A DNA stretch of 64,000 nucleotides, from positions 62,001 to 126,000 of the forward strand of contig QHWT01000045.1 in NCBI GenBank assembly GCA_003222675.1, given 5' to 3'. The position numbers were made by a program, and so were the translations under genes. Origin of the DNA: Acidobacteriota bacterium (GTDB lineage Bacteria; Acidobacteriota; Vicinamibacteria; Vicinamibacterales; 2-12-FULL-66-21). Below the pieces are notes generated by a model. That model saw nothing but the letters and a program-made list of their open reading frames with translations. It made no database searches and was not told the DNA's origin. Shown piece by piece: positions 2,299 through 48,667 of this stretch; the stretch's first letter is position 1; every line of letters starts with the position of its first letter.

Positions 2299-2531
2299 TC
2301 TTACTCGCTGCGCAGTCTTGTTTCGGATGGATTTGTTACAACGGATCACACGGATCGGACGTCGTGAATTCGTGGGGCATCGTGTTCGCCCCGAACGCTC
2401 CCGTGTGGGTCGCCGACAATCGCACCGGCGTGTCGCTACTGTACGATGGGTTCGGCGACAAGCTGGCGCTGGTCGTCACGATTCCGACGGCGAAGGGTGG
2501 CACGCCGCCAGGCTCTGCTCAAGGAGTGTGA
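2299..2531 (+). pseudogene. remnant of TIGR03118-family protein
   Basis: Two short frames together read like the N-terminal part of a TIGR03118-family exported protein. The first (2299-2358) ends SLVSDGFVTTDHTD, and the second (2361-2531) gives VVNSWGIVFAPNAPVWVADN followed by RTGVSLLYDGFGDK and LVVTIP. The joint near 2356-2360 is explained by loss of one base, since restoring it gives the expected HTDPDVVNSWG. The frame then stops after PPGSAQGV, well before the family's usual length of several hundred residues, so the 3' part is missing. No start codon with a ribosome site is evident. Family recognition rests on the SLVSD...HTDP..VNSWG...W.A.N.TG pattern and is from memory. A dead gene is the most likely reading. 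Confidence 0.55.
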
Positions 2532-2913
2532 CTCTATGAATACGTTTCTCAGCACTACAGGCGGAGTAGCCCGGCGGACGCTGGGTATTTGAAGACGCTG
2601 AGTACCGGCGTGTGGTTGATTTCGCAGAGCGTCGCATGCGGGATCGCAATGGCGGGGGATCTACGGCGAAATCGCCGTAGGTCTGGTCGGTTGCGATAAC
2701 TCTCGTCAAAAATCTTTAAGAAACAGGAATCGACGGCAGGTTCGAATTCCGCGGACCAGTCGTCTTCTGGCGGTTTGCGTGGCACCCAGCGTGGCACCCG
2801 CTGCTGCGTCGTCTGAGGAAACTGCAGGTTTGTCGCGGTGGCTTCATAAACAGTGCGGCCTTTATCGCGAACAACACCCGTAACTCACCTGAAGTGCATG
2901 AAGGAGACCAGCC
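2532..2913. other. intergenic, one hairpin
   Basis: No gene is supported. A perfect 8-bp inverted repeat (CTACGGCG, AAAT, CGCCGTAG; 2661-2680) forms a hairpin without a T-run. Near 2777-2800 there is a short tandem GTGGCACCC...GTGGCACCC; a similar tandem occurs near 17107-17125 in the flank of the DoxX gene. The right end is the upstream region of the transposase remnant, with an AAGGAGA site at 2901-2907. Confidence 0.45.
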
Positions 2914-3774
2914 ATGCCGAAGAATATCAGCAGTACCGCGACAAGGACAGCGACATAGGGAGTCGGCACGGCGCAGGGGGCAATGACGGCGCGGCGTCGG
3001 TCACGCCCCGGTATGAGGCGGTGGTGGGCTGGATGTCGGGGATCGTCAGAGCCACTATTGCATGGTGGATCTCAACGGCGACGTGGTGACTGGCGGGATG
3101 GTGAACACCAAGGACGCAGCGTTCCGGATGCTCTTCGAGGGGAAGGGCGCATGCGCATCGCGCTGGAAGCGGGCGCGCATTCGCCGTGGGTTAGTCGACG
3201 CCTCGGCGCGCTGGACCGTGAGGTCTTGGTGGCCAATCCGCGGAAGCTGCGCCTGATTGCGGAAAGCGATGCGAAACACGATCGTGCGGATGCCCAGTTA
3301 TTGGCGCGCCTCGCGCATGTCGGACCGGCGCTGCTCTCACCCATTCATTCGCGGTCGGCCGGACCGAGATCGATCTCACGATGATCCGCGCCCGTGAGGT
3401 GGCCGTCCAGACGCGCACGAAGATCGTGAACGCGGTGCGTGGCATGGTGAAGTCCACAGGCCACCGGTTACCGCCCTCGTCCACGGTGACATTTGCGCGC
3501 AAGGCCACCGAGGTCTGTCCGGCGGTGTTGCAGCCTGCGTTGGTGCCGCTGATCCGCTTGATCCAGACCTTAACCGACGAGATCGAGGCGTACGATCGGT
3601 TGGTCGTCGAAACCGCGCGCGTGTATCCCGAGACGCAGGCGATTCAGACTATTCATGGTGTCGGGGCCCTGACCGCCGTGGCTTTCGTCCTGGTGCTAAA
3701 CAACGACGGGCAGCGCTTCAAGCGGGACTCCGCCCTGCGCCGCTGGGGCCTGTCCTTAGCCAGTCACGGATGAG
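2914..3774 (+). pseudogene. degenerate IS110-family transposase
   Basis: A dead DEDD transposase. Pieces in different frames line up in the order of an IS110/IS1111 transposase. The start is MPKNIS (ATG 2914, behind AAGGAGA). It continues with RYEAVVG, then LDVGDRQSHYCMVDLNGDVV, where the family has its first catalytic Asp, then NTKDAAFRMLFEGKG. In another frame come LEAGAHSPWVSRRL, VANPRKLRLIAESDAKHDR and DAQLLARLAHVGPALLSPI. In a third come MIRAREVAVQTRTKIVNAVR and TIHGVGALTAVAFVLVL. At least four frame changes or stops are needed to connect them. The C-terminal part after RFKRDSALRRWGLSL is missing, including the conserved serine region of family members. No terminal repeats were found, as is common for IS110 elements. 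The copy cannot move by itself. Confidence 0.85.
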
Positions 3775-3988: not shown

Positions 3989-6541
3989 ATGCAGAGGAGC
4001 GTCAGCGCGACACTCTGGCAAACTGGTTCGTGGCTTCGAATGTTTCTGACGCGGGCGAGACGCTGGGGCTTGCCGGTGGCGATTGTCTTCACGCCGATCG
4101 TACTCGGCGCGCAAATCGACATACTTACGAATAGATACGATCAGCAGCGCTCGGGGACGAATCTCCGTGAGACAACGCTGACGGTCGGAAACGTCAACTC
4201 CAGCCGGTTCGGAAAGCTCTACTCCTACCCGGTCGACGGTCCGGTGTACGCCCAGCCACTGTACATTTCAGGTTTGACGATCAAAGGCGCTGTACGGAAC
4301 GTACTCTACGTCGCCACGATGCATGACAAGGTGTACGCGTTCGACGCCGGCAATCCATCGTCGGTGCCGCTCTGGATGACGGACTTCACTCGCCCGCCAT
4401 CGATTACACCCGTACCGATCACGGACATCGTGCCGATGAGTGGGGGGAATATCATCGGGAACATCGGGATCCAGGGCACGCCCGTGATAGACCAGGCGAC
4501 CCACACGATCTATCTGGTCGCACGTACCAAGGAAAACGGAGAGTACGTGCAGCGGTTGCACGCCCTCGACATCATTTCGGGAGGTGAGCGCCCCGGAAGT
4601 CCGGTGGAAATCAGTGGTTCGGTGCCTGGAACCGCCGCCGACTCCACAGTCATCGACGGGACACGCGTCGTCACGTTCGACCCGCTGGTGCAGGTCCAGC
4701 GGACCGGACTCGCGTTGACGAACGGCGTCGTCCTGATCGGCTGGGCCGCGCACGAGGATGTGACGCCGAGTCATGGTTGGATCATGGGCTTCGACGCGAC
4801 AACACTCGCCCGCGTCGCCATCGTTGCCGTCACGCCAGACGCGTACTTAGGCGGCATCTGGCAGGGAGGGCGAGCTCCGGCAGTCGATTCTGCCGGCAAT
4901 GCTTACTTCGCGACCGGCAATGGGAAGTGGGATGGCACCCGGAATTTCGGTGACTCGCTGATGAAGTTTCAGGTCGCCCGAACCGGGTTGACGCTGCTCG
5001 ATTACTTCACACCCGGCAACGAAGTCACTCTGAGCGCGAACGACGATGACCTGAGCGGATCCGGTTTCACACTCCTGCCCGGGACGAATCTGCTCTTGGG
5101 TGGCGGAAAGGAGGGCGTGCTCTATCTGCTCGACGCGAACAATCTCGGCAAGAAAGTGCCGAGCGACACGCAAATTGTTCAGAAGATTCCGGTCAACGGC
5201 GGGCATGTGATGGGTGGTCCCGTTTACTGGAACTCCGCGAGCGCCGGGCCGCTTATCTATAACTGGTCGGAATTAGACGTGCTCATCGCCTATCGCTTCA
5301 GCAACGGACGTCTGGTGACGTCCCCGTACGCCCAGGGTAGCGTCATATCACCAGGGCACCCGGGAGGGTCTCTTACGCTGTCTGCCCGCGGGGCTGCCGC
5401 GAACACTGGTATCGTGTGGGCCTCGATGCCGTCGTTTGGCGATGCGAGGCATAGTCTCGCGGCCGGAATCCTGCGCGCTTTCAACGCCGAAACCTTGGCC
5501 GAGATCTGGAACAGCAATCAGGTTGCTTCGCGCGATCGGGTCGGCAATCTAATGAAGTTCGTCCCACCCGTCGTTGCGAATGGCAAGGTGTATTTGCCAA
5601 ACCACGACAACGCCGTCCAGGTCTATGGCCTGCTGCCGCCAAACTTCAGCGTCAACATTGCGCCCGCAGCACAGACCGTCGCTCCCGGAAGGACCGCCAC
5701 GTATTCCGTCACGGTGACTATGCAATCCGGGTTCACTGGGCAGGTGAGCCTTAGCGGCATTGGTGGCCCTCCCGGAACAACGTTATCGTTTAATCCTCAA
5801 CTACTCCCCGGACCTGGCACGGCCACGATGACTGTCAAGATTCCGTCCGGCACGGCCGCGGGAAGTTTCACTCTCGCAGTGACGGGAACGAGTGGTGCGG
5901 CGGCGGTTCGTTCTGCGAATCCAGTCACCATCACCGTCGCGTCGACGACCGGGGCAGTCGGCGCCATCGGGATCAATTTCATCGGGACGAGCACGGCGAC
6001 GATGGCGGCCTCGGAGTCGGCGGGCGCGATCGCGCAATCGCATTGGAACAATGCGGCTGGCGCCGCGAGCGGAACCGCCCTGGCACTCGTTGACGGCAGC
6101 GGCGCGACGACGGGCGCCCGCGTGACATGGAACGCAAACAGCGGGTGGAGCACACCGATCACCGACGCCGCCGGGAACGCCCGGATGATGAAGGGGTATC
6201 TGGACACGACCAGCACATCGTCGACGACCGTGAACGTGACCGGTCTGACGTCACGCGCCTATGACATTTACGTGTACGCCGACGGCGCGAACGGCACGCA
6301 TGAGCGGTCGGGCGCTTATACGATCAGCGGCGCCGGCATCACCCCGACGACGATCGCCGCGATCGATGCCGCCAGCACGAATTTTTCGACGACGTTTATC
6401 CCAGCAAAAAACGGTGCCGGCAATTACGTGAAGTTCACGATTACTGCCGGTACGTTTACGGTGACCGCCGTGCCAGCGGCAGCCGACTCGACGACGCGGC
6501 GCGCGCCGGTGAACGGAATCCAGATCGTCCCGTTGCAGTAA
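3989..6541 (+). CDS. secreted PQQ-like beta-propeller protein with C-terminal jelly-roll-type domain
   Basis: An 850-residue secreted protein. A long N-terminal signal has its hydrophobic core at about residues 27-40 and ends near VLGAQ. An internal Met at residue 18 (4040) would give a more usual signal length, so the start is uncertain. Residues about 45-545 form a PQQ-type beta-propeller (NVLYVATMHDKVYAFDAGNP, GIQGTPVIDQATHTIYLVAR, LGGGKEGVLYLLDANN, VANGKVYLPNHDNAVQVYG). Residues about 552-648 are an Ig-like sandwich (FSVNIAPAAQTVAPGRTATY). Residues 652-850 make a beta-rich domain (IGINFIGTSTATM, YDIYVYADGAN, NGIQIVPLQ) that resembles carbohydrate-binding jelly rolls but that I cannot name. 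Without catalytic motifs it is more likely a binding or structural surface protein than a dehydrogenase. It precedes a polysaccharide gene set. Confidence 0.85.
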   Translation: MQRSVSATLWQTGSWLRMFLTRARRWGLPVAIVFTPIVLGAQIDILTNRYDQQRSGTNLRETTLTVGNVNSSRFGKLYSYPVDGPVYAQPLYISGLTIKGAVRNVLYVATMHDKVYAFDAGNPSSVPLWMTDFTRPPSITPVPITDIVPMSGGNIIGNIGIQGTPVIDQATHTIYLVARTKENGEYVQRLHALDIISGGERPGSPVEISGSVPGTAADSTVIDGTRVVTFDPLVQVQRTGLALTNGVVLIGWAAHEDVTPSHGWIMGFDATTLARVAIVAVTPDAYLGGIWQGGRAPAVDSAGNAYFATGNGKWDGTRNFGDSLMKFQVARTGLTLLDYFTPGNEVTLSANDDDLSGSGFTLLPGTNLLLGGGKEGVLYLLDANNLGKKVPSDTQIVQKIPVNGGHVMGGPVYWNSASAGPLIYNWSELDVLIAYRFSNGRLVTSPYAQGSVISPGHPGGSLTLSARGAAANTGIVWASMPSFGDARHSLAAGILRAFNAETLAEIWNSNQVASRDRVGNLMKFVPPVVANGKVYLPNHDNAVQVYGLLPPNFSVNIAPAAQTVAPGRTATYSVTVTMQSGFTGQVSLSGIGGPPGTTLSFNPQLLPGPGTATMTVKIPSGTAAGSFTLAVTGTSGAAAVRSANPVTITVASTTGAVGAIGINFIGTSTATMAASESAGAIAQSHWNNAAGAASGTALALVDGSGATTGARVTWNANSGWSTPITDAAGNARMMKGYLDTTSTSSTTVNVTGLTSRAYDIYVYADGANGTHERSGAYTISGAGITPTTIAAIDAASTNFSTTFIPAKNGAGNYVKFTITAGTFTVTAVPAAADSTTRRAPVNGIQIVPLQ

Positions 6542-45680: not shown

Positions 45681-46364
45681 ATGAGCATCACTCGTGTTCT
45701 CGCGCTGTGGACGGCGTCGATTGTGATTTCTGCGACATCGTTGAGCGCTGGGGCGGAGCTCTCCACGTACCGAGGCTTCCAATTCGGCATGAGCGTAGCC
45801 GCGGTCGCACGACACGGCGGCATTTCACCGGAGCCGCGCATCGTCGATCAACGCCCGGAGCTGATTCAGGAACTCATGTGGTTGCCGACCCGCGCGGGAG
45901 CGATGGCGGACGAAGGAGATTCGGCACAGAAGATCCTCTTCACCTTCTACAACGACCAGCTCTCTCGCGTCGTGGTGTCGTACGACCGAAGCAGGACCGA
46001 AGGGTTGACGGCTGAAGACCTGATCGAAGCGATCTCGACAACGTACGGCGTGGCGCCGATTCCTTCCGTCGGGACGGCGCCGCTCATCCCGGGCCGGAAT
46101 GCGGACGACAAGATCCTGGCGCGTTGGGAAGATCCGCAGTACTCGATCACCCTGTTCCGATCCAAGTATCTGTCAACGTTTGGCCTGGTCTTGCTTTCAA
46201 AGCGCCTGGATGGTCTCAGCATGGTCGCTCACGCCGAAGCGATGTTATTGGACGAACGAGAGGCTCCGGCGCGAGAATCGGCGCGGCGGCAAGGACGGAC
46301 TGACGACGACCGCCTCAGGGAAGAAACGGTCCGACGAGCGAACAAGGCAGCCTTCAAACCCTGA
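45681..46364 (+). CDS. exported hypothetical protein
   Basis: A 227-residue protein with a signal peptide (VLALWTASIVISATSLSAGA). The mature part starts LSTYRGFQFGMSVAAVARHG, a pattern seen in small periplasmic proteins that open with Y.GF.FG.S...V. It continues KILFTFYNDQLSRVVVSYDR, EGLTAEDLIEAISTTYG, ARWEDPQYSITLFRSKYLST and FGLVLLSKRLD. The C-terminus (DDDRLREETVRRANKAAFKP) is a charged helix. The ATG at 45681 follows GAGGAG; the upstream extension is arginine-rich shadow. No enzymatic motif is visible, and the two-layer alpha/beta look suggests a small ligand- or partner-binding protein. Function unknown. Confidence 0.8.
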   Translation: MSITRVLALWTASIVISATSLSAGAELSTYRGFQFGMSVAAVARHGGISPEPRIVDQRPELIQELMWLPTRAGAMADEGDSAQKILFTFYNDQLSRVVVSYDRSRTEGLTAEDLIEAISTTYGVAPIPSVGTAPLIPGRNADDKILARWEDPQYSITLFRSKYLSTFGLVLLSKRLDGLSMVAHAEAMLLDEREAPARESARRQGRTDDDRLREETVRRANKAAFKP

Positions 46365-46516: not shown

Positions 46517-47755
46517 TCACTCGGCGGGCTGGCAACGTCGCGCTTCGATCTGCCGTACCTTGTCCTGAAATACTGCGACCCAGGTGTCGATCGCCCGGCC
46601 GGCCTCCGGGGATCCGTCCGGGCCTCGCGGTCCGAGTTGGTCAACGTGCGCGGCTCTGAAGATCGCTCGCACCTCCTCCTGGGTGACGCGGTGCAATTGT
46701 TCAACCAGGAAACGGCGTCCCTCCTCGGAAATCACCGGATTCGACTCGCCGTCGAGGAGCGCCCTGAACGATACGGTGAGCTCTCCGCGGCATTCGTTGC
46801 CGTTGGTCGCCGTGAACACGCGCTTTCGCTCCCACGCTTCGAGATTCATCTTCGCCGTGGCCTCACTGGACTCGCGGCCCGCACCGCCGAACGTCGCGCC
46901 GACATCCACGATCGTCACCGCTGAGGTCGGACACGCCGACGCACCCGGACGCTCGAGCAATATCAGAGGCGGGGTCACGACATTGTCGGCCCGCAGCTCG
47001 CCGGCTTCGGTGTCTACGTGTGCGGCGCAGTACAGCCTTTGCTGCTCGCGCTTTCGATCGCCATGCTGCATGAACACGCCGAGCAACGTCAGCGCATTAA
47101 AGTACGTGCGTTGGCGCGCGCGTTCCAGCCCTCGTGGAAGCAATCGAATCGCTGTATCGAGATCCCGCCAGGACCAACCTTGATCGACCCTGCCGTTGGA
47201 GAGAATGACAGGCGTTGGCCATTGAGCCTGCAACATTGCGACATATCGTCGGGTGCGGCGGCTGCCCGCCCCCGTGTGGGGATTCTCGGGACATCCGTCA
47301 CAGCGCACCTTGATTGGGAGGGCGGGCACCGCGTCGAATCCGAGCGCCCACATCAACCGCGACGCCGCCACGGTCCCGAACACTTCGCGGTTGCCCGTCC
47401 GGGACTGCGGATCCCAGTACTTCAGACGCAGATCGTGACCGTCGGCCGTGCGACAGAGGAACTTGGCCGAACTGCCGCCGAGCTCCTTTCCTGCCTGCGC
47501 GAACGTACACTCGATCCCCTCATCACTGTTGGCCTGCTCGTACGTGTAGGGAAACGCACCCACCGGTCCCTCGAGCACGTCCTTCGGCGACAGCGCGCCT
47601 GGATCGCGCCAAATGATCGCGTGTGCCAGATATGTCGCACGCGCCTCTGGGCTCGTGCGAATCGCCGAGAGGATCGTCGACTCGGTAGCGGACATCCAGG
47701 CCATGCTCACCGTGAACATCCCGGCGCCGATGAAGACGAGTTGTCGTGACATCAT
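46517..47755 (-). CDS. exported protein with kinase-like motif order
   Basis: A protein of about 412 residues with an N-terminal signal or anchor (MMSRQLVFIGAGMFTVSMAW). The start is uncertain: ATG 47806 would add 17 residues. The order of motifs matches a protein kinase-like fold. Lys112 in DLRLKYWD would be the strand-3 Lys, Glu124 in NREVFGTVAASRLMWALGF the helix-C Glu, His231-Gly-Asp233 with Lys235 in MQHGDRKREQQRL the catalytic loop, and Asp284 in IVDVGATFGG the DFG-like metal site. Several cysteines (CDGC, CAAH, SACP) fit an extracytoplasmic location. Similar motif orders occur in HipA-, CotH- and FAM20-like kinases, but I cannot place it in any of them. The kinase idea is inference from motif order only. 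It stands alone on its strand. Confidence 0.75.
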   Translation of the reverse strand: MMSRQLVFIGAGMFTVSMAWMSATESTILSAIRTSPEARATYLAHAIIWRDPGALSPKDVLEGPVGAFPYTYEQANSDEGIECTFAQAGKELGGSSAKFLCRTADGHDLRLKYWDPQSRTGNREVFGTVAASRLMWALGFDAVPALPIKVRCDGCPENPHTGAGSRRTRRYVAMLQAQWPTPVILSNGRVDQGWSWRDLDTAIRLLPRGLERARQRTYFNALTLLGVFMQHGDRKREQQRLYCAAHVDTEAGELRADNVVTPPLILLERPGASACPTSAVTIVDVGATFGGAGRESSEATAKMNLEAWERKRVFTATNGNECRGELTVSFRALLDGESNPVISEEGRRFLVEQLHRVTQEEVRAIFRAAHVDQLGPRGPDGSPEAGRAIDTWVAVFQDKVRQIEARRCQPAE

Positions 47756-47971
47756 GCGCACTCGCGATTTTCTCCATGGCCAGGCCTTTTCGCGCGGTGC
47801 CATCATGATCGACAGGCGTTCGGGGGAAAGCCCAACTGCGGGGCGGTTTCGGTGCGCTGGTGTCCGGGATCCAAGCAGGAGCACTCGCACATCATAGATG
47901 CCAGCCGGCAAGTCTGCATATCAAACCCTCCGGGCACGGTTTGGAGTAGCATCGCTCATCTGGAGTTGATC

Positions 47972-48667
47972 ATGTCGAAGTCCGTTCTGGCGTTCACGGC
48001 GGCCGCGGTCCTCGCAGTGGTCGGGCTCACGCGCGCCGTTCCTGGGACCGAGAAGGCGCGGGCAATCCCCGCGCCCGCGGTTGACGAGCAGGCAGGCGCA
48101 GCGACGTCAGAGGTTGCGGTTCTTGCCGGTGGATGTTTCTGGGGAGTCCAAGGCGTCTATCAGCACCTCAAAGGAGTTGTCAGCGCCGTCTCCGGCTATG
48201 CCGGCGGTGACAAGAACACGGCCGAGTACGAGCGCGTCAGTACCGGCAGGACCGGCCACGCGGAATCGGTGCAGGTCACGTTCGATCCGCACAAGATCAC
48301 CTACGGACGCCTCCTGCAGGTGTACTTTTCAGTGGCTCACGATCCGACCGAACTCAATCGACAAGGCCCGGATGTCGGCACGCAGTATCGTTCGGCAATC
48401 TTTCCGGCGACTGAGGAACAGGCGAGCGTCGCGAAGGCCTACATCGCACAACTCGATCAGGCGCGCGTATTCAAAGCGCCGATCGTCACCGGGATCGAAT
48501 CCGGCCGCACGTTCTACCCGGCCGAGGCGTACCACCAGGATTTCCTGACGCTCAACCCGACGTATCCCTACATCGTGTACAACGATCTGCCGAAGATCGA
48601 GAATCTCAAACGTCTGTTCCCGGAGCTGTATCGAGCCAATCCCGTGCTCGTGCGCGCCGGACAATAG
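47972..48667 (+). CDS. msrA: peptide-methionine (S)-S-oxide reductase, exported
   Basis: A 231-residue MsrA that reduces the S-epimer of methionine sulfoxide in proteins. The catalytic motif GGCFWGVQGVYQHLKGVVSA is complete, with the nucleophilic Cys in GCFWG. Conserved segments include VSGYAGGDKNTAEYERVSTG, HAESVQVTFDP, FSVAHDPTELNRQGPDVGTQ, YRSAIF and FYPAEAYHQDFL. About 55 residues precede the core, starting with a signal or anchor helix (VLAFTAAAVLAVVGLTRAVP), so it probably repairs envelope proteins. I see no recycling cysteines in the C-terminal tail, so reduction would depend on another partner. The start is ATG 47972 with TGGAG upstream. An MsrB gene is not present nearby. Confidence 0.95.
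   Translation: MSKSVLAFTAAAVLAVVGLTRAVPGTEKARAIPAPAVDEQAGAATSEVAVLAGGCFWGVQGVYQHLKGVVSAVSGYAGGDKNTAEYERVSTGRTGHAESVQVTFDPHKITYGRLLQVYFSVAHDPTELNRQGPDVGTQYRSAIFPATEEQASVAKAYIAQLDQARVFKAPIVTGIESGRTFYPAEAYHQDFLTLNPTYPYIVYNDLPKIENLKRLFPELYRANPVLVRAGQ

Follow-up and report, generated by a model that had tools for sequence, protein, structure and literature searches.

A putatively exported, kinase-like protein family of Acidobacteriota with remote similarity to HipA

Several described protein families come close to the gene reported here. For HipA kinases, an adjacent putative antitoxin gene, generally encoding a DNA-binding protein, serves as a criterion (PMC8262856). CotH proteins are atypical bacterial kinases with a protein-kinase-like (PKL) fold that target an extracellular structure, the spore coat (available part of PMC7821199), while Fam20 proteins, kinases of the secretory pathway, act on secreted substrates and have an altered motif set (available part of PMC7948968). 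Moreover, PKL proteins with activities other than phosphotransfer exist (KINtaro paper, PMC10870513). Here, we analysed a gene in a 64,000-nucleotide stretch of acidobacterial DNA (the window), and we assign a probability of about 0.62 to the reading that its product belongs to an unnamed, exported branch of the PKL superfamily that is remotely related to HipA and is predicted to carry out phosphotransfer outside the cytoplasm. No description of this family was found in the open-access literature, and an earlier one is possible.

The gene, its export signals and its family

The open reading frame at 46517..47755 on the minus strand is a genuine, conserved gene. It encodes 412 amino acids from an ATG at 47755 (upstream alternative starts are possible) and is supported by family alignments A1 and A9 and by a homologue from another genus that is 61% identical over nearly its full length. 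The initial annotation took the product for an exported protein with several cysteines, and both features were borne out. Inspection of the translation reveals a hydrophobic, signal- or anchor-like N-terminus (MSRQLVFIGAGMFTVSMAWMSA; residues 1-25, 47681..47755, minus strand), and the translations of relatives, inspected by eye, have equivalents at this place: a Sec-type signal in L001, L051 and L064, and a lipobox in L003, L068 and L074. Such N-terminal signals in many members support a putative export of the family from the cell. In a member from the same genome (L066 2522-3568, in G000:C135), basic residues follow a transmembrane segment, and the kinase-like domain may, unlike the rest of the family, face the cytoplasm. 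Eight cysteines (positions 83, 101, 152, 155, 243, 275, 322 and 408) are kept in the branch of the window protein and absent from a more distant branch of the family, a pattern that disulfides would be expected to show.

The genome that harbours the window (G000, 7.16 Mb) encodes a paralogue at C117 and more distant family members at C135, C138 and C57. Within the same order, the window protein matched 36 of 162 genomes. Across an even sample of the phylum, a profile of close homologues matched 55 of 396 genomes (E up to 1e-3) and a profile of the distant branch 50 of 396 (E up to 1e-10). Thus, about 13% of the sampled Acidobacteriota genomes carry, often in several copies, a family that is unnamed in every family database used. 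The two branches are homologous (profile-profile probability 99.9) and are split by a fully supported tree branch. Family genes occur as tandem or divergent pairs at L019 1501-3751, L068 1809-5305 and L070 1632-5329, indicating that local duplication or clustering is common. The member at G000:C57 (L067 2816-4159) is a longer, more distant relative from a further branch and adjoins a gene resembling an outer-membrane surface antigen; matches in open frames of 515-735 amino acids in G079:C3, G422:C2 and G458:C464 also belong to this branch. A contig scan beyond the phylum sample, with the window protein alone as query, returned one relative, again acidobacterial. The scanned viral contigs, plasmids and phages held no relative of the family and PHROGs gave no credible match; a role as mobile-element cargo was dropped because no phage or plasmid relative was found. 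In PADLOC, the kinase-like proteins were without a match.

Kinase-type motifs and remote similarity to HipA

The initial annotation had noted a succession of Lys, Glu, HGD and DVG motifs in the order of a protein kinase; motifs and numbering proved to be as given, and they are conserved across the deep family. All of them lie on the minus strand. The segment GGSSAK (residues 93-98, 47462..47479) is the counterpart of the Gly-rich loop GGAxxK of HipA, to whose GGARAK it aligns. It is followed by the candidate strand-3 lysine K112 within LRLKYWD (47420..47422), aligned with the invariant HipA lysine, and by a helix-C region (47372..47386) with E124, in NREVFGTVAAS, and T128. The catalytic-loop motif HGDRKREQQ (residues 231-239, with D233, K235 and Q238; 47039..47065) precedes DVGATFG (residues 284-290, 46886..46906), a DFG-like, putative metal-binding motif with DVG at 284-286.

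Alignment A9 comprises 30 sequences with 18-61% identity to the window protein (P0001). G94, G139, D233, D284, G286 and G290 are invariant in it, and W49, K98 (Lys in 27/30), K112 (29/30), E124 (29/30), position 128 (Glu in 27/30), A131, R133, A137, W194 and K235 are conserved to at least 90%. Of the 282 well-filled columns, only 19 reach an identity of 90% or more, and since G94, K98, K112, E124, D233, K235, D284, G286 and G290 are among these few, the kinase-type residue pattern goes beyond chance. The inspection of Lys112, Asp233 and Asp284 proposed at the outset therefore had a clear result, the two aspartates being invariant and the lysine nearly so down to about 18% identity; free variation of these residues among homologues, named beforehand as the observation that would speak against a kinase, is not what the 30 rows of A9 display. 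The helix-C glutamate was placed less accurately: E124 is indeed conserved, but in the HipA profile alignment the helix-C Glu of HipA pairs with position 128, where the window protein has Thr and its nearest relative Ile.

Further differences concern the catalytic loop. H231, D233, K235 and Q239 are present in all 32 rows of A1, while position 238 varies, with Gln in 24 rows and Asn in the other 8, giving the pattern H-x-D-x-K-x-x-[QN]-Q for this branch, in most of which the metal-binding Asn position is thus occupied by Gln. The distant branch has N-W-D-x-K-x-x-N and, later, D-x-G; DxKxxN with DxG is the classical kinase pattern. Well-supported tree branches require at least three Asn/Gln changes and close relatives differ at position 238, so Gln may still bind metal in place of Asn. 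The ordered PKL catalytic residues (Lys, Asp with following Lys and Asn, and the Asp of DxG) are conserved in A9, A1, A2 and A14, and the window member deviates from this set by Gln for Asn and by Thr at position 128.

Direct database searches offered little. Pfam, NCBIfam and PDB-sequence searches with the window protein yielded nothing credible (a Pfam CCAP match at E 0.015 was below its cut-off, implausible and rejected), and the family profiles matched no PDB sequence. The window protein and 32 members had no match to HipA_C (PF07804) at gathering score, to CotH (PF08757) or to the Fam20C model in Pfam; HipA_2 (PF20613) hit one of the 32 members at E 0.31 and none above the cut-off. The window's own genome was likewise without a HipA_C or CotH match. 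Profile comparisons reached deeper. Against HipA_C (A7, 16 acidobacterial sequences, loci from the family search), A9 scored 28.7 (shuffle maximum 21.1 in 220, Gumbel p 1.2e-4) and A2 30.2 (shuffle maximum 25.0, p 6e-4); against HipA_2 (A8, only 4 sequences, loci likewise from the family search), A9 scored 22.4 (shuffle maximum 20.4, p 2.7e-3). The profile search called for in the initial annotation was most informative with a 74-sequence family profile, which scored 34.6 against HipA_C, with the motifs in register, where the best of 150 column shuffles reached 22.2 (Gumbel p 2.5e-6). The same profile scored 30.7 against HipA_2, 20.3 against CotH, 20.3 against metallophosphoesterase and 11.5 against PLD, with unrelated families ranging from 11 to 20. 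As column shuffles destroy secondary structure, these p-values are a rough guide.

HipA-type Gly-rich loop, catalytic and Mg-binding motifs each have aligned counterparts: GGSSAK is matched to GGARAK, K112 to the strand-3 Lys, the D233 loop to the NxDDHxKN loop and, in the A9 alignment, D284 to the Asp of the HipA YD motif. The probabilities of hhalign itself for the HipA comparisons are modest (about 10-39%), and the argument for homology therefore rests on motif register and shuffles. By these measures the family appears remotely similar to HipA kinases, and homology to a known PKL family is detectable at the profile level. The initial statement that the protein could not be matched to HipA, CotH or FAM20 thus stands for the latter two, with CotH at background and Fam20C without a Pfam match, but gives way for HipA.

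Structure prediction with the window protein and L001 as only inputs gave AlphaFold2 models of low confidence (pLDDT 33.6 for the full length and 40.1 for residues 77-412). Their order of secondary structure, with three strands, a helix, two strands and then helices, agrees, as weak evidence, with a kinase N-lobe preceding a helical lobe. Foldseek returned nothing significant for either model, and although many of its top rows were kinases (MPS1/TTK, AAK1, YihE, Stt7), these were set aside as evidence because their E-values were 0.1 or worse. VIA-align found no significant match for the second model; kinases were not prominent there, and mostly model residues 1-66 were compared.

Gene neighbourhood

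Two kinds of gene recur beside family genes, one for a secreted, calcineurin-like phosphoesterase (PF00149) and the other for a PLD-like protein (PF13091). Of 94 family genes in 40 genomes, 24 have the phosphoesterase gene within 6 kb, where about 0.35 would be expected, and 25 have the PLD-like gene within 6 kb; as these genomes were picked for carrying the family, the figures express linkage given presence. The window's own genome has such a cassette at L074 (G000:C138, 2445-6149), in an arrangement that recurs across the phylum, with a divergent family member (2445-3377, plus strand), a PLD-like gene (about 4111-4983, plus strand) and a secreted calcineurin-like phosphoesterase (5202-6149, minus strand). 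PADLOC assigned the PLD-like neighbour to DrmC, matches that resemble generic PLD similarity and were not retained. The linked PLD-like protein is weakly similar to the C-terminal domain of PPK. At G185:C11, G185:C21 and G232:C15, all from one taxonomic family, the distance between a polyphosphate kinase 1 (PPK1) gene and a family gene is about 1.3 kb, and both PPK1 copies of G185 have such a neighbour. PF02503 has no match in the window's genome.

The gene in the window is solitary, with neither a phosphoesterase nor a PLD-like neighbour at its locus. It is surrounded by msrA, an MFS transporter and a protein without a Pfam match. The msrA gene (PF01625, about 47969-48667, plus strand) is divergent from the kinase-like gene and its product has a signal-like N-terminus; a peptide methionine sulfoxide reductase gene was absent beside the relatives inspected. 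The convergent neighbour at 45681-46364 (plus strand) also encodes a signal-like N-terminus and has no Pfam match at E 0.01. No antitoxin gene lies beside the window gene, the closest HTH protein being a Crp-like regulator about 2.2 kb off, beyond another gene, and a toxin-antitoxin role was dropped for want of such a neighbour.

Interpretation and comparison with known kinases

If the protein acts as a kinase, nucleotide binding would fall to K112 and the GGxxxK loop and metal binding to D284 of DxG together with Q/N238, D233 would serve as the catalytic base and disulfides would stabilise the protein. The phosphate acceptor might be an envelope protein, glycan or lipid, and in many relatives the adjacent secreted calcineurin-like phosphoesterase could take the phosphate off again. 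The placement of so many relatives beside a phosphatase-like gene suggests a phosphorylation system outside the cytoplasm. On the other hand, the periplasm normally contains no ATP, which counts against phosphotransfer. A broader picture, in which Acidobacteriota possess an undescribed extracytoplasmic phosphorylation system, each genome encoding several exported HipA-like kinases, many of them accompanied by phosphoesterase and PLD-like proteins, and in which an unusual phosphate supply would make up for the lack of ATP, is tentative and, on balance, rather doubtful.

The kinase-like interpretation of the initial annotation thus gains from motif order, remote HipA similarity and export, while catalysis by the window member itself is uncertain because of T128 at the HipA helix-C Glu site and Gln at the metal-binding Asn. 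These two deviations and the ATP-free periplasm would equally suit a PKL fold that performs no phosphotransfer, with the window's branch being a pseudokinase, an envelope ligand sensor or a catalyst of another PKL reaction, for instance AMPylation or glutamylation, for which the activities already reported among PKL proteins provide precedent (PMC10870513). Yet K112, D233, K235 and D284 are near-invariant, although a dead enzyme need not keep them, and close relatives with an otherwise common motif have either Asn or Gln; we consider this alternative unlikely, though it is the most serious of those weighed. That the protein lies outside the PKL superfamily altogether, as an exported enzyme or binding protein of other ancestry whose Lys, Glu, Asp and Asp fell into kinase-like order by chance, might be argued from the lack of any family database match, the uninformative structure predictions and the modest hhalign probabilities. 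We judge it improbable, given the in-register similarity to both HipA_C and HipA_2 (shuffle p 2.7e-3 to 2.5e-6) with unrelated families at background, and the classical kinase pattern kept in the distant branch. Least probable of all, and only slightly credible, is a phosphotransferase that uses polyphosphate instead of ATP as its phosphate donor in the envelope. The PPK1 genes near family genes and the weak PPK similarity of the linked PLD-like protein would fit, but the three loci come from two genomes of one taxonomic family, PF02503 goes unmatched in the window's genome, and PLD and PPK domains have the same fold in any case.

Under the preferred reading of an exported, HipA-related kinase branch, activity would mean that a bacterial kinase family operating outside the cytoplasm is widespread and that many genomes encode a candidate eraser next to it, and phosphorylation in a normally ATP-free compartment would become directly testable.

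Among the described families, Fam20 is comparable in being secreted-substrate kinases with an altered motif set (available part of PMC7948968), but it is an animal family of an ATP-supplied compartment, whereas the acidobacterial family, compared by Pfam scan alone, is without a Fam20C match. CotH shares the bacterial origin, the PKL fold and the action on an extracellular structure (available part of PMC7821199), but differs in that Pfam gives no match and the profile score stays at the level of unrelated families. HipA_2, the "HipA-like kinase", is the second-best profile match and has similarly ordered NxDRxxxN and IDHG motifs, although no family member passes the Pfam cut-off and the reference consists of only 4 sequences. 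Unlike HipA/HipT, the family is exported, includes a Cys-rich branch, and has DxKxx[NQ] instead of DxHxKN and DxG followed by ATFG. It is also neither recognised by HipA_C in Pfam nor partnered by an antitoxin, and is best read as a relative of HipA that does not belong to the HipA family; it shares with that family, in register, the Gly-rich loop, the strand-3 Lys, the helix-C Glu and the catalytic Asp with its following amide residue.
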